Virus record (IMG/VR): IMGVR_UViG_3300037137_003411
Coordinates: 1 to 21,170 of that record
Direction: 5' to 3' (one strand)
DNA from: a virus
Length of the DNA stretch: 21,170 bases
In this document: positions 1,896-7,413 of the stretch, piece after piece
How positions within the stretch are numbered: position 1 is the stretch's first letter
Layout of the letters: each line of letters begins with the position of its first letter
Made by a program: the position numbers and the translations under genes
The notes under the pieces: generated by a model
What the model was told of the DNA's origin: nothing
The model's database searches: none
The model's input: only the letters and a program-made list of their open reading frames with translations

Positions 1896-2474
1896 ATGAG
1901 TAAATTATTTGATGTTCTGGAAAAAGTTAAATATGGTGAAGAGTACGAATATATTAAAATAGATGAAGATATAGATGAGGACATAGAAGTTCTAGAAGAA
2001 GGCATTAAATTCTTTAAGGCTAGCCAGCGTCTAAAAAAATTAGCGGATAGATTACAAAAAAAAGACATGAAAGAAATGTCTCCTATAATTGAAAGAACTA
2101 GAAAAGCAGCTAGTGAATTTGAAAGAATTGAAGGTAAGTTTGAAAAGGGTGAAATTACAAAAACTCAAGCTAGACTTAGAATTGATAGTATTAAAAGAAA
2201 TTATAATGATATAATGAAAATGTTGCGTGGCAAAGAATTTGGCGCTTTTCTAAAAGTTGGTGGTATAGTAGCTATTCTTGGTGGTATAGTTGCTTCCATT
2301 ATTTTTGGTTTCCAGCCACTACAAGCAATAGGAATTACTTTACCCAGTTGGGACAAGATAAAAAATACATTAGGACTAATAAGTACGGCAGCGACTAGGG
2401 AATATAATACTTTAAAAAAAGCTTTCGAACAGAAAGTTCTTCCAGCAGTCAAGAGTGCCGTTTCTAGCCTATGA
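1896..2474 (+). CDS. Paralogue C of the tandem small-protein family, diverged and longer
   Basis: At 192 residues this is the most diverged of the three. It keeps the same order: an acidic N-terminus (KIDEDIDEDIEVLEE), the basic helix SQRLKKLADRLQKK, the patch KFEKGEITKTQARLRI, then a Gly/Ile-rich hydrophobic segment at about residues 118-142 (VGGIVAILGGIVASIIFGF) that looks like a true transmembrane helix. An extra amphipathic C-terminal tail of about 45 residues follows. The start is supported by AGAGGA about 8 bases upstream. Translation ends at TGA 2472-2474, followed by two terminators, so this is the last gene of the left operon. Function is unknown; the GxxxG-like hydrophobic stretch suggests membrane insertion or oligomerisation. 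Confidence 0.75.
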   Translation: MSKLFDVLEKVKYGEEYEYIKIDEDIDEDIEVLEEGIKFFKASQRLKKLADRLQKKDMKEMSPIIERTRKAASEFERIEGKFEKGEITKTQARLRIDSIKRNYNDIMKMLRGKEFGAFLKVGGIVAILGGIVASIIFGFQPLQAIGITLPSWDKIKNTLGLISTAATREYNTLKKAFEQKVLPAVKSAVSSL

Positions 2475-2562: not shown

Positions 2563-2597
2563 AGGCTCTGGAAACAGAGCCTTTTTATTTTATTATT
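2563..2597 (+). terminator. Rho-independent terminator of the left + operon
   Basis: AGGCTCTG (2563-2570), a GAAA tetraloop and CAGAGCCT (2575-2582) form a perfect 8-bp stem followed by a T-rich tract (TTTTATTTTATTATTTT). The U tract runs into the 3' end of the opposing kinase gene. It backs up the terminator at 2516. Confidence 0.9.
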
Positions 2598-3049
2598 TTA
2601 TCTTTATCTATTCTATTTACATCTTTATAAAAGTTCATTAATTGTTTTTCAATTACATGATGTGAAACATTACTTCTATCTTTGCCAGCTTTTAGATCTG
2701 CTTCTATTCTTTTTACTAGTTCTTCTTTTTGTGCTGGTTCTATTATTTTATACTTTAAATCAAAATCAATTCCTCTTAAATAATTTAGAAAACTTGCTCT
2801 ATCTTTTTCACTAACCATAGTAGAATCTAGTATAGCATTTCTTCCAGCTACCAGTATTTGTTTAACTTTTTCTTTTGCTTCACTCCATATTTCAGTATTT
2901 CGTGAATTGTCTGATACATTACCAGTTAAACTTCTTCGTAAATCATCTGTAGCAACTACTACAAATTTAGGATGAGTTTGTAAATATTCTTGTATCCAAG
3001 TACTTTTTCCAGAACCTGCTGGACCAACCATCATTATTAGTGTTGCCAT
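2585..3049 (-). CDS. Polynucleotide-kinase-like P-loop protein (kinase domain only)
   Basis: This 154-residue P-loop kinase has a Walker A motif GPAGSGKS at residues 9-16, DD at 35-36 followed by LRR (the D-x-x-R pattern of T4 Pnk-type AAA_33 kinases), a DSTMVSEKDR segment, and a C-terminal SHHVIEKQLMNF helix. T4 Pnk is about 300 residues because it adds a 3'-phosphatase domain; that domain is absent here, so only 5'-kinase activity on nucleic acid ends or nucleotides is expected. Its ATG overlaps the stop of the upstream DHH gene (TAATG), implying translational coupling. Together the two could belong to a nucleic acid end-processing or oligonucleotide-recycling module (inference). The exact substrate is uncertain. 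Confidence 0.85.
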   Translation of the reverse strand: MATLIMMVGPAGSGKSTWIQEYLQTHPKFVVVATDDLRRSLTGNVSDNSRNTEIWSEAKEKVKQILVAGRNAILDSTMVSEKDRASFLNYLRGIDFDLKYKIIEPAQKEELVKRIEADLKAGKDRSNVSHHVIEKQLMNFYKDVNRIDKDKIIK

Positions 3050-5481
3050 TATTTTGCCAGCCTTTGTATAATCTCTTTTTGTGAATCTGGTTTCTTAGCT
3101 CTAAATCTTTCTGCTGAAGAAATTGGTTTAGTTACTTTAAGATTAGCAAATTTTCCTTCTAGTATATTTTTAAATTCATCTTCCATTTCGTCCATTATTT
3201 TATTTCTTTCTCTAGAGAAAATATCTTTAATCTTATCTAGAAATTGTGAAATTACCCATTTTACTGGCATTACTTCTTTTAAAGTTGTTTTAATAGTTTT
3301 TAACTTCTTCAATCTTTTATCTAGCGCATCTATCTGTTTCATTGCATCACGAGATTTTGTCATTTGCTCGACTTCTTTTTTTGCTTTATCTATAAATCTT
3401 ATTATATCGCCTTCTTCCCACTTTGCTCTTTTTAAAGCACTTACTATTTTTTTATCTATTTCTAAATCTGTAAATACTCTTTCTACCATAGTGTTGTTAG
3501 TTAAGTTCTGTGGAGTAAGTCCTAGAGTTCCTAGACCAGATACATTTGTAATTCCAGCATGTCCACCACTTTCTTTTCTAATAATGTCAAAAGACCATTT
3601 ATTGTATTTAGTTTCAAATCTCTTTGCTATTTCCTTTAGAACTTCTTGCCCTACTTTTCCTAAATCAATTTGCTTCTTAACTTCTTCTGGTAGGTCTGGA
3701 TTTACATTTACTTGAAAGAAAGTTGGATAGCGCCTAAACATAAATGGATAACGACCTCCACCTTGCTTGGTAAGAAGATTTCCCATAAATCTTTCTACAG
3801 AACCTCCTCCTAATGGATTCTGTTTTATAATTATTCCTTTATCCCCAACTTTAGTGAATTTAGTTTTTCCGGGAGTGGTTTGAGTTTCTATTTGTTCTTT
3901 TCTTGTATCTACTATTTTATCTCTATGTTCGTTAGTAAGTGCTTTTAGTTTAGCCCATTTTTCTGGGGAGACATCTTTCATGTCCTTTCCTTGTTGCGCT
4001 AGATTATCCCATTCCTTTTGTAGTGCTTCTAATTCTTTAGTTGTTTCTAGAGTTGCTTCATTTACATGTGGACTATCTATATCAATTGTATGACTATCGC
4101 TAGCTGGAATTGTCATACTTCTTTTCTTAATTTTTGTAGTTGATGCTGATTTATTTCTCTTTTTATATCTAGCTAAAGATTTTTTAGTTCCTTTATCTAG
4201 GTCATCCTTCATTTCATCATCTACATAATAATTCTCACCCATAATGTAATCACCCCTATTAGGAGTAGCTTCACTTCTAGCTGGATAATTATTGGGTTGT
4301 TTTTTTGTCTTAATTATTTTCTCTGGATGCTTATCAATTTTAGGTTTTCTATGTTTCTTTTTTTCTTGTTCTATATGTTGTCCTCCCATGTAAGCAGCAC
4401 TGGTACCACTAGTAGTTGGACGATAAGTATCTTCTAATTTCAAAGGTTTATTAGGAAACTTAGTAGATGTAGATTTAATTTGTTGAATTGTTTTTTTTGT
4501 TGTTTCAATAGGAAATAATTCTTTTATTATTTTTTGATAAAAACTTGGTTTTCTATTATGTTTAAATATCTCTTTTATTAAATTAAAAATTTCAATTCTT
4601 TCTTCTTTACTTAAGTGGCCAACATTATTATATATAACTTCCTCAGCACCACCTATACTAAGAACTTCTTTTAACCTTTTTTTAATATTTTCAAAGGTAT
4701 CAACATCTTCTTTTACTATTTTTTTCTTCATACCCATCGTAGGCATTCGGTTTCTAATTTCTTCTACTTTATTCCAATCTGGAGTTTCTTTTTGTAATTC
4801 TGCTATTCCTTCTTTTTGTAAATCAGTTAATCTTACATGCTTTAATATGTTATTATATAAAGCAACTAGAGATGGGTTAGTAGTTCTTATTATATTTGAC
4901 ATTGCTGCTCTATTATCTAAAAGCCTAGTTGAAGTTAATAAGGCATTGGTAAGAATAGCTAGCCTCTCCATTCTTCCTGCTTCCTTGAAGTTCTTTGGTA
5001 AATCCATCACATCTTCAAGGTGAGAATAGTTAGCAGAGTCAATAATAGAAATAGCATTAATTGTAGTTGAGTCAGCTAGACCACTAGCATAAATTGTAGC
5101 AAGATGTTCTGATTCACTTGGATATTCGGTAGCACCAGTTTTTCCACCAGCTTTTGATTTTATATCTTTGTCAGTTAGTTGATGATGGTCTGACCAAAAA
5201 TCTGGTCTACGCGAACCTTCCGGCAAGCGAGCGAAGTCTACTAGGACAACCATCTTGCCTTTTTTAGTTTCGAATTGATTTTTATTTGCTTGTCCGTATT
5301 GTATTGGTTCAACAGAAATGTTTTGCGGTGCTAATCCTTGCTTTGATAATTGCCTATAGGCAAGAATAGCAGAAAAAATTCCATCAAAATCTTGGCGACC
5401 TCAGTGATAGAGAATTTTGGCCGCGCGGGTTTCTCGTGGTATGCGAATTCCACTCTCAGTCAAATATTTCTCTATCGTCAT
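3049..5481 (-). CDS. DHH/DHHA1-family phosphoesterase with in-frame TGA at codon 27
   Basis: Reading from ATG 5481-5479, preceded by AGGAGG, gives 810 codons interrupted by one in-frame TGA (5403-5401, codon 27). The frame on both sides is DHH-like: ILYH-TGA-GRQDFDGIFSA carries the metal-binding D31-x-D33 motif, D82 follows in VVLVDF, D98-H99-H100 is the DHH triad (FWSDHH), and D148 lies in IIDSANY. The C-terminal region around 576-645 (RYPFMFRRYPTFFQVNVNP, then ESGGHAG) resembles DHHA1, the oligonucleotide-binding part with its GGH motif. Between them lie about 300 lysine-rich, low-complexity residues. DHH/DHHA1 enzymes hydrolyse short oligonucleotides or cyclic-dinucleotide products. A product restarted at Met77 (5253) would lack the D-x-D motif. 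The gene may be recoded, nonsense-mutated, or carry a sequence error. Confidence 0.8.
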
Positions 5482-5487
5482 TTGGTG

Positions 5488-5493
5488 CCTCCT
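5488..5493 (-). promoter_or_regulatory. Strong Shine-Dalgarno fixing the DHH gene start
   Basis: AGGAGG on the minus strand lies 6 bases before ATG 5481-5479. Its presence, and the conserved DHH motif immediately downstream, show that the true start lies upstream of the in-frame TGA rather than at Met77. Confidence 0.85.
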
Positions 5494-5511
5494 TTCCTAT
5501 TTTTAAACTTA

Positions 5512-6207
5512 TCATTCTAGATAAATCCTTTCTTTAAATCTTTTAATCAACCATTTGTAAAAAGGTTCATCTATTACCTTTACTTTTACTTTATATAAAT
5601 TTTTAAAGGCATCAAATTTTCTTCTAGCATCTTCCATCCACCTTCCTTTTACTTCTATCCAGTATTTTTTATCTGGTAAATAAAAATCTGGAATAAAAGT
5701 TTCGTTTTCATTTATTTCGTATCTCGTAGTTTCAAATTCCCATTTTATCTGTAAGCAATTTAAAATTCTAGCTATATTTGCTTCCCAAGAACTACGAAAA
5801 TAAAAACCTACATCTTCTCTAAATCCGTGTTTAAAACCATTATTTTTACCTATCTTATTTCCATAATTAGGATTATTTTTACCAGTCCATCTTTTTATTT
5901 TTAAGGAATGCTCCGATAATTTTTTCCCTTTATTTGGATGATAGAGTTGTCCGATGTTTATTACTCCATATCTTTCAATATTTGTATTTTTCATTTTTTT
6001 TATTTGTCTTTCCGTTGGTTCTCCTTTTTTTCTTGTTTTTATATTTTCTAATTTTAATAATTTTGCTAGAGTTTGTCTCGCAATATTATACTCAATTCCT
6101 AGTTCTTTAGAAGTATATCCATTTAAATATTTTTCTATTATTTCATTTTTATATTTATTGAAAATTTCCAGAGTGGTTAAATGAATAAGGTAGTTGCTTT
6201 GTTTCAT
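5512..6207 (-). CDS. Free-standing homing endonuclease, PD-(D/E)XK (VSR-like) type
   Basis: The 231-residue product combines a helix-turn-helix-like N-terminus (residues about 26-54, GYTSKELGIEYNIARQTLAK), a NUMOD3-like NNPNYG segment near 111-116, and a C-terminal nuclease core: FRSSWEANIARIL with E142, then IPDFYLPD with D174, and WIEVKG with E185-V-K187. That order is typical of the EDxHD/VSR-like homing endonucleases of phages. Start at 6207 is preferred over an ATG at 6231 because AAAGGT precedes it with suitable spacing. It ends in tandem TGA-TAA stops, 30 bases before the DHH gene. Such genes are mobile and cleave intron-less or endonuclease-less alleles, so this one probably invaded the operon. 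Confidence 0.85.
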   Translation of the reverse strand: MKQSNYLIHLTTLEIFNKYKNEIIEKYLNGYTSKELGIEYNIARQTLAKLLKLENIKTRKKGEPTERQIKKMKNTNIERYGVINIGQLYHPNKGKKLSEHSLKIKRWTGKNNPNYGNKIGKNNGFKHGFREDVGFYFRSSWEANIARILNCLQIKWEFETTRYEINENETFIPDFYLPDKKYWIEVKGRWMEDARRKFDAFKNLYKVKVKVIDEPFYKWLIKRFKERIYLE

Positions 6208-6270
6208 ACAACTACCTTTACAAGACGACATCGAAATCTATATGTTTTTCATATCTTTATCTTTACTTAA

Positions 6271-7413
6271 TTATTCTATTGGATACTCATATACTTTGCC
6301 CAAGTAGTTTTTAATTTTGTAGCTAGTTTCATCTTTAGCAAGAATAGTTTGTGTTGAAATGGGTATCTTTCCGCCACCCTTGGGGGCATCAATAACAAAT
6401 TTTGGAACAGCAAAACCAGATATAAAACCTTGTAATTCATCTATTATTTCTAATCCTTTTTCTACAGAAGTTCTAAAATGCTTTGAACCAGTAATAGGAT
6501 CGCACTGATATAAATATCTAGGTACAACTCTCATTTTTACAAGACCTAGCATTAACTTCTTCATCGTTTCGGCATCATCATTGATACCTTTAAGTAATAC
6601 CGTTTGACTACCAAGCACTATACCAGCATCAGCAAGCATATTACAAGCCTTACTTACTTCTGGCGTAATTTCATCTGGATGTGTAAAATGTATATTAATA
6701 TAAAGTGGATGAAATTGTTTTAAACTATTTACTAGTTCACTAGTAATGCGTTGGGGCATTACTACCGGAATTTTCGTACCTATCCTTATAACATCTATAT
6801 GTGGAATCAAACGTATCTGCTGTAAAAAAATAAGGAGTATGGAAGTATCCATTGATAACGGATCGCCTCCTGAAATAATTACATCCCGTATTGACTTGTG
6901 AGACGAAATATACTGAACAGCCTTTTCCAGATTTATTGAATAGCAATTTTTTTCTCCTACCGACCTAGACCTAGTACAATACCTACAATAAGAAGCACAG
7001 ATACTAGTCACTAGTAAAAGTACTCTATCTGGATAACGATGTACTAGTCCCGGAACAGGACTCATATCATCTTCATGTAAAGGGTCGTCTTCCTCACCCT
7101 TACTTTTGATGAGTTCTTCGCTAGAAGGAATTACTGTCTTACATAGAGGGTAATTTATATTTTTTTGGTATAATAGAGAAGCATAATATGGTGTTATGCT
7201 TAAAGGAAACTTATATTCCTTTTCTTCTAAACCTTCTATCTTTAACTTTTTTAAATCGGAAAATGAAGTTAATCTGTTCGCCATTTGCCAATGCCAATTT
7301 TCCCAATCTCTTTCTTGTATGTAAAATGGTGCTTTTAGCACCCATTTACTTGGAGGTTCCTGCGGTTCCTCTGGTGCTTCTTCTATCGAAGAAGACAATG
7401 TCTCACTAATCAT
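6271..7413 (-). CDS. kamA: Lysine 2,3-aminomutase (radical SAM, PLP)
   Basis: This 380-residue enzyme has the radical SAM cluster C139-x3-C143-x2-C146 (CASYCRYC), SGGDP at 181-185, and the PLP-lysine motif DAPKGGGK with K349. D305 (YQCD) and D342 (VIDAP) match the two aspartates that hold the substrate lysine side chain in clostridial lysine 2,3-aminomutase, so L-lysine to beta-lysine is the predicted reaction. It is shorter than the clostridial enzyme (about 416) and lacks its C-terminal zinc-binding cysteines. EpmB, the EF-P-modifying relative, is also short, so either free beta-lysine (an osmolyte precursor) or EF-P modification is possible. A consensus promoter lies just upstream and it is first in the minus operon; the Shine-Dalgarno (GAGGT) is rather distant. 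Confidence 0.93.
   Translation of the reverse strand: MISETLSSSIEEAPEEPQEPPSKWVLKAPFYIQERDWENWHWQMANRLTSFSDLKKLKIEGLEEKEYKFPLSITPYYASLLYQKNINYPLCKTVIPSSEELIKSKGEEDDPLHEDDMSPVPGLVHRYPDRVLLLVTSICASYCRYCTRSRSVGEKNCYSINLEKAVQYISSHKSIRDVIISGGDPLSMDTSILLIFLQQIRLIPHIDVIRIGTKIPVVMPQRITSELVNSLKQFHPLYINIHFTHPDEITPEVSKACNMLADAGIVLGSQTVLLKGINDDAETMKKLMLGLVKMRVVPRYLYQCDPITGSKHFRTSVEKGLEIIDELQGFISGFAVPKFVIDAPKGGGKIPISTQTILAKDETSYKIKNYLGKVYEYPIE

Follow-up and report, generated by a model that had tools for sequence, protein, structure and literature searches.

The DNA analysed here (the window) is an entire IMG/VR virus record of 21,170 bases, and together with its relatives it represents a little-known group of bacterial viruses. 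On its minus strand lies a DHH-family gene starting at the ATG at 5481-5479, the frame of which is interrupted at codon 27 by a TGA (5403-5401, minus strand) and is open beyond this TGA until the stop at 3049-3051. The sequence-only reading of this DNA had pointed out the TGA and the start codon behind a Shine-Dalgarno sequence, and both were confirmed. It had treated the TGA as an event at the level of one codon; the TGA stands, but relatives revealed that the extra unit is 9 nt and not one codon. As also stated there, TGA is an ordinary stop in the window, because six of the 26 main open reading frames (ORFs) end on it (TAA, 14; TAG, 6; TGA, 6). The features of the locus are as follows.

5488–5495, minus strand: Shine-Dalgarno sequence of the DHH-family gene, AAAGGAGG, recognised in the sequence
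5404–5481, minus strand: exon 1 of the DHH-family gene, 26 codons, MTIEKYLTESGIRIPRETRAAKILYH; ESGIRIP..AAKI.YH is conserved in relatives
5468–5476, minus strand: 5′ arm of the outer helix, GATAGAGAA, just past the start codon (folding and helix tests)
5406–5414, minus strand: 3′ arm of the outer helix, TTCTCTATC, its final base being the first base of the proposed take-off codon (folding and helix tests)
5406–5404, minus strand: proposed take-off codon, the His codon CAC, last codon of exon 1
5395–5403, minus strand: insert and proposed bypassed gap, TGAGGTCGC, 9 nt, its first triplet being the stop TGA; missing from 20 uninterrupted relatives, with 8 and 59 nt there in two other alleles
Within 5395–5403, minus strand: proposed landing codon CGC, the last triplet of the insert
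3049–5394, minus strand: exon 2 of the DHH-family gene, from QDFDGIFSA... to the stop, 781 codons, with the catalytic DxD at its beginning
5512–6231, minus strand: free-standing homing endonuclease gene (HEG) with HTH, NUMOD3-like and phage endonuclease I-like nuclease parts; 53% identity to its counterpart upstream of the interrupted gene in contig L007

The HEG is upstream, and 30 nt separate its end from the DHH-family gene region, as the sequence-only reading had noted. A P-loop kinase of the AAA_33 group is encoded directly downstream of the interrupted gene (2585-3049, minus strand), and a lysine 2,3-aminomutase-like radical SAM gene, an unusual auxiliary metabolic gene for a phage, occupies 6271-7413 (minus strand). 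Three neighbouring ORFs in the region 944-2474 (944-1408, 1380-1874 and 1896-2474, plus strand) have common motifs and look by eye like tandem paralogues.

IMG/VR scans with the window protein and alignments of natural relatives yielded 23 distinct contigs besides the window, and the insert site was read in all of them. Twenty of the 23 have an unbroken frame with H-x-D-x-D-G and no extra codons. The other three (L002, L003 and L007) have an interruption right behind the same His codon and represent two alleles, L003 being identical to L002 across the gene. The insert is 8 nt long and begins with TAG in L007, and is 59 nt long and begins with TAA in L002/L003. Thus a stop stands directly 3′ of the proposed take-off codon in all three alleles, including that of the window, and it is a different one each time (TGA, TAG and TAA). 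All inserts occur at one nucleotide position, after the His of H-x-D-x-D-G, and this recurrence is more than chance. Coding resumes at CAA, CAA or GAA to give Q/Q/E-D-F/L/F-D-G, and uninterrupted relatives carry Q, E, R, D, M or I where the interrupted genes resume with Q/Q/E. Neither 8 nor 59 is a multiple of 3, so the frame shifts in L007 and L002; the 59-nt insert has a TGA within its resume frame, and stops are found in the frames concerned. The insert of L002 (6061-6119) itself folds into a 10-bp hairpin, inside which a 5-bp one is nested; the hairpin inside the gap takes up 46 nt, and 13 nt remain between the coding parts without it. Two metagenomes (L002 and L003) gave identical assemblies of the 59-nt allele, and no second contig with the insert of the window was found.

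One scan of bacterial and archaeal genome contigs gave no relative, and among isolated phages (INPHARED) the window and L004 proteins had no match; a distant relative, L014, matched four uncultured large phages in the INPHARED search. In another distant DHH relative, L032 (IMGVR_UViG_3300036940_000207, 3901-4301), in-frame TGAs occur inside the conserved frame, and TGA may be decoded as an amino acid in this phage. L032 was counted among the 20 uninterrupted contigs despite these TGAs, which are further down the gene.

Conservation was compared on both sides of the insert. In the stretch from the insert to the first downstream Met, which holds the catalytic DxD, the best interrupted/uninterrupted pairs share 25 of 47 residues (window/L008, 53%), 33 of 50 (L002/L008, 66%) and 29 of 50 (L007/L009, 58%), with all twelve such comparisons spanning 40 to 66%; uninterrupted pairs share 32 of 50 (L004/L009, 64%) and 29 of 50 (L008/L009, 58%). 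Identity between the window and L007 after the insert is only 17/47. Judged from these identities, the stretch after the insert is about as conserved as among uninterrupted genes. Exon 1 is conserved too, matching each of L008, L009, L004 and L026 at 12-15 of 18 residues. By eye, no in-frame ATG, GTG or TTG able to start the DxD-containing stretch was seen upstream of it in the window, L007 or L002, and the earlier statement that a restart at Met77 would lose the DxD proved correct. In a codon-position selection test, third positions lead as a rule, with modest P values. We infer that both parts are still translated together as one protein.

Pfam DHH was matched in 6 of 9 family members, always weakly and below its gathering threshold; DHH-like sequence is present on both sides of the insert, in agreement with the sequence-only reading, which had found the flanking homology intact. 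D-H-H is invariant in the family alignment, and both the H-x-D-x-D motif I and the DHH motif are present. A profile search matched PAP phosphatase 8a8k (E 0.0055), and the top ten Foldseek matches were mostly RecJ, Cdc45 and PggH chains, none of them with E ≤ 0.001. On these grounds the enzyme is DHH-like. For the L009 protein, which is uninterrupted, the AlphaFold model has a mean pLDDT of 60, with about 76-84 in the part containing the insert site; it places this site after a strand (28-33) and before a helix (37-52), where a catalytic loop usually lies.

In all three alleles, the last nucleotides before the proposed take-off point pair perfectly with a segment lying some 75 nt further upstream (9 bp in the window, 13 bp in L007, 12 bp in L002), and the 3′ arm of the helix stops 1 or 2 nt short of the His codon's end. 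Such a helix was matched by 4, 0 and 0 of 3000 dinucleotide shuffles for the window, L007 and L002, respectively. The 15 uninterrupted relatives in this test, from which the copies L003, L035, L036 and L038 as well as L032 and L049 had been set aside, have helices of 3-7 bp, none better than 96/3000 shuffles. When exon 1 was recoded synonymously, keeping the amino acids and using each gene's own codon usage, 2 (window), 1 (L007) and 0 (L002) of 2000 recodings reached the helix. The folding energy of exon 1 against such recodings gave z of -5.4 for the window, -6.6 for L007 and -13.3 for L002 (0/500 each), compared with +1.6, +0.5, 0.0, -1.9, -1.0 and +0.4 for the six closest of the twenty uninterrupted relatives, and none of 142 exon-2 windows of the same three genes reached the low level of exon 1. 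Dinucleotide shuffling of the window region together with its flanks yielded z of only -1.0 and -1.5, and shuffling of exon 1 alone -3.9. The G+C content of exon 1 is 0.45, 0.38 and 0.49 in the three interrupted genes versus 0.32-0.33 in their exon 2, whereas in the five relatives compared any G+C excess of exon 1 is 0.03 at most.

In L002 and L007, the outer helices of the best folds match column by column, and the apical hairpins match closely. Of 88 cells in the three-sequence alignment, 88.6% pair, and both-sided changes affect 7 of 30 pairs (as many in 0 of 500 shuffles, and 0-2 in slid controls), a count from three sequences only with the structure taken from one of them; the outer 12 pairs show 94.4% pairing and 5 both-sided changes. 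An RNA model, R1, built from the three hairpins and run on 20 records scored its own hairpins at 76-98 bits and four uninterrupted relatives weakly, at 17-34 bits. The exon-1 hairpin is strongly selected, and only in interrupted genes. The antisense strand folds nearly as strongly (z of -4.6 for the window, -5.6 for L007 and -11.1 for L002), so an RNA hairpin and a DNA hairpin are not told apart by folding. The folds also suggested that the gap might pair with the Shine-Dalgarno region; this was dropped, as such pairing beat shuffles only in L002 (10/500 as good), and not in the window (113/500) or L007 (462/500). A group I intron or other known RNA family was rejected as well, with no useful Rfam match. 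Coding palindromes are described for nematomorph mitochondria in the consulted sections of PMC6649704, so coding hairpins can exist without bypass.

An HEG directly adjoins the interrupted gene in two of the three alleles, lying directly upstream in the window and in L007 (3251-3952), which supports the earlier hunch that the neighbouring HEG matters. Weak signatures were found, of phage endonuclease I in both HEGs and of NUMOD3 in that of the window. In a search of 11 records, full-length HEGs of this type were confined to the window and L007, and the L012 contig matched once, weakly and in part; two IMG/VR scans for the HEG gave nothing beyond the L007 copy and a single weak, partial match. 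No HEG was found directly upstream of the uninterrupted gene in L004, L008, L009, L012 or L026, and L002/L003 have the insert and the hairpin in the absence of an HEG of this type. An HNH-type-looking HEG, recognised by eye, is located near the uninterrupted DHH gene of L008 but not directly upstream of it (6189-6890, minus strand). The L007 gene preceding the HEG ends with ..LKEDIMKIDNLLNTMLTETKC, which by eye resembles an old DHH gene start (compare ..LKEDTMKLNESGIRIP in L004), and IDNLL recurs after the HEG; the likely old start is at 3209-3247 and the repeat region runs from 3987 onward, also by eye. From this remnant and the repeated IDNLL, the HEG of L007 seems to have landed inside the beginning of the DHH gene. 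The window has no clear remnant of an old gene start.

The interrupted genes did not form one clade in a tree built from 12 exon-2 proteins: L007 was placed with L004/L009 (85/85) and L002 with L012/L026 (81/99). The tree needs three changes of interruption state in 200 of 200 bootstraps; only two of its inner branches are strongly supported, and those are compatible with one origin.

The anatomy of the interrupted genes is like that of T4 gene 60, and the outer helix is found where a zipper would be, which makes bypass of 9, 8 and 59 nt the best-supported reading. It is likely, in our assessment, that these genes are expressed by programmed translational bypassing, zippered by the hairpin, in an HEG-associated cassette; the case is built on three distinct alleles and draws on sequence data. 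In the window, ribosomes would start at ATG 5481, read 26 codons and halt with peptidyl-tRNA-His on CAC (5406-5404) and TGA in the A site. The exon-1 hairpin, just unwound by the ribosome, would re-pair as the mRNA exits the channel, and the outer 9-bp helix, its 3′ arm ending on the take-off codon, would act as a zipper motor, drawing the mRNA back through the ribosome. The peptidyl-tRNA would then release, the ribosome would move 9 nt, imperfect re-pairing would occur at CGC, and translation would resume at CAA, making the catalytic H-x-D-x-D-G motif continuous. The corresponding hops would be 8 nt from CAT to TAC in L007 and 59 nt from CAT to AAC in L002/L003, the latter with the 46-nt hairpin inside the gap. 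The putative take-off and landing codons are unmatched in each case (CAC/CGC, CAT/TAC and CAT/AAC). The His anticodon is GUG, and two or three positions of CGC, TAC and AAC pair or wobble with it, AAC having a mismatch. As exon 1 of the window has only 26 codons, a nascent-peptide signal of the T4 type, at 30 residues from the P site, cannot act there. The insert most likely arose within a homing-endonuclease cassette; the upstream HEG would target the conserved DNA of the catalytic motif, and the insert would split this target and protect its carrier.

Bypassing was weighed against a mini-intron, in which the insert would be cut from the mRNA near the exon-1 hairpin and the mRNA religated. 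Such an intron would provide the joined product that is needed, a strong hairpin abuts the 5′ boundary, and the adjacent AAA_33 P-loop kinase (2585-3049) might act on RNA ends; yet by eye no such kinase is evident beside the gene in L007 or L002, Rfam gave no useful intron match, and the boundaries of the inserts are common only in the initial stop, which splicing does not require. To our knowledge, introns of 8 and 9 nt have no precedent, and we regard splicing here as quite unlikely. It is very unlikely that the gene is simply broken, with damage caused by the HEG or by repair after its cut and a shorter protein made from Met77, or none. The HEG adjoining two of three alleles, the stops in the frame and the long ORFs from internal ATGs would agree with damage, but conservation persists on both sides, the hairpin with compensatory changes occurs only in interrupted genes, and three alleles share one nucleotide position; the three state changes in all 200 bootstraps also indicate that this is not one dying lineage. 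For the same kind of reason, the recent nonsense mutation considered in the sequence-only reading is not supported, since stop-initial inserts recur and the selected hairpin is confined to interrupted genes, and an error is disfavoured by the identical assembly of the 59-nt allele from two metagenomes and by the other alleles at the same place.

Readthrough of the stop, selenocysteine or ordinary frameshifting at the stop would suit the window taken by itself, where 9 nt keep the frame and the product would have three extra residues. These residues would fall in the H-x-D-x-D-G loop, which is free of extra residues in all 20 uninterrupted relatives, and comparing the codon in relatives, a check proposed with the sequence-only reading, showed 20 of 23 contigs without the insert and TAG and TAA in the other alleles, which speaks against selenocysteine, as does the lack of a useful Rfam match; the frame changes caused by 8 and 59 nt and the TGA in the resume frame of the L002 insert argue against readthrough. 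No tRNA gene was found in the window or the loci of the other cases, so a suppressor tRNA or recoded TGA was rejected, TGA being an ordinary stop, and decoding of the stop is extremely improbable. The hairpin might instead be a DNA or regulatory element unrelated to passing the stop, either a target of the HEG or a resolvase or a block to translation start. The nearly equal folding of the antisense strand, the resemblance of the HEG nuclease domain to phage endonuclease I and resolvases, and the location of the 5′ arm at the start codon in the window and L007 would fit such an element. However, L002, which has the strongest hairpin, lacks an HEG of this type and has its start codon with its own ribosome site upstream of the hairpin, and each of the three interrupted genes has its helix end at the take-off codon, a structure absent in uninterrupted ones. 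A role of this kind is thus highly doubtful.

The interrupted genes, read as cases of bypassing, share with T4 gene 60 a stop right after the take-off codon, a non-coding gap between two parts of one gene, an HEG just upstream (in T4 the pseudogene mobA, an HEG remnant) and a gap at a catalytic DxD-type motif, T4 reading ..TDADHDG and then TAG by eye. The T4 TDADHDG stretch is presumably the TOPRIM motif. The mobA cassette was reportedly studied by Bonocora et al. in 2011. The two systems differ in the gene (DHH family here, topoisomerase in T4) and in the HEG (endonuclease I-like here, HNH in T4), unrelated in both respects, and in gap length (9, 8 and 59 nt versus 50 nt). Take-off and landing codons are GGA/GGA in T4 and unmatched here, and T4 has a KKYK nascent-peptide signal for which exon 1 of the window is too short. 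The exon-1 hairpin is far stronger here, as T4 gene 60, taken as a positive control for exon-1 structure, was negative in the same test (z of 0.2 and 0.6). The relevant sections of the literature describe a 50-nt gap in T4 gene 60 that is bypassed from a take-off codon directly followed by UAG (PMC5009743; PMC11194080), an upstream stem-loop that pairs as the mRNA leaves the ribosome and is regarded as a motor pulling the mRNA, and a proposed origin by HEG insertion with a protecting gap (PMC5009743); mobA and other HEGs are treated in PMC2988022, in the portion drawn on here.

According to the same sections of PMC5009743, the byps of Magnusiomyces capitatus mitochondria are bypassed by mitochondrial ribosomes, seemingly independently of mRNA context, in contrast to the upstream hairpin specific to interrupted genes here; their A site holds an unused codon and not a stop, and several of them also lack matched codons. 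The synthetic stop-hops of Weiss et al. (1987), as cited there, likewise cross a stop by a few nt, but they are artificial, with the stop flanked by matched codons, and have 9 nt per residue compared with 12 and 11 here. A known phage gene with a suspected short coding gap is similar to the present genes, but in the part of its description used here the gap is tied to a rare UUA codon and no stop, coding hairpin or HEG is mentioned. Phage bypassing was stated in 2020 to have been observed only in T4 (PMC7576135, in the section consulted), and the corresponding section of PMC8211752 names only T4 and Magnusiomyces as bypass cases. In the open-access literature on bypassing, gene 60, homing endonucleases and DHH, a scope mostly without subscription papers, no report of such a case was found.

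On balance, we favour the view that these phages carry a second natural HEG-linked bypass lineage, independent of T4 in gene, nuclease and signals, in which a coding hairpin would serve as a power-stroke zipper past a stop over 8, 9 or 59 nt with neither a T4-type peptide signal nor matched landing codons. With three natural gap lengths, 20 uninterrupted control contigs and compensatory changes, what drives sliding, the peptide or mRNA zippering, becomes directly testable. Such genes would be annotated as broken, and more of them may therefore be hidden. The finding suggests that bypass evolves repeatedly as an answer to homing endonucleases and, if true, would together with T4 suggest a rule: HEGs that hit the DNA of invariant catalytic motifs select stop-first inserts exactly there, along with mRNA devices that cross them.
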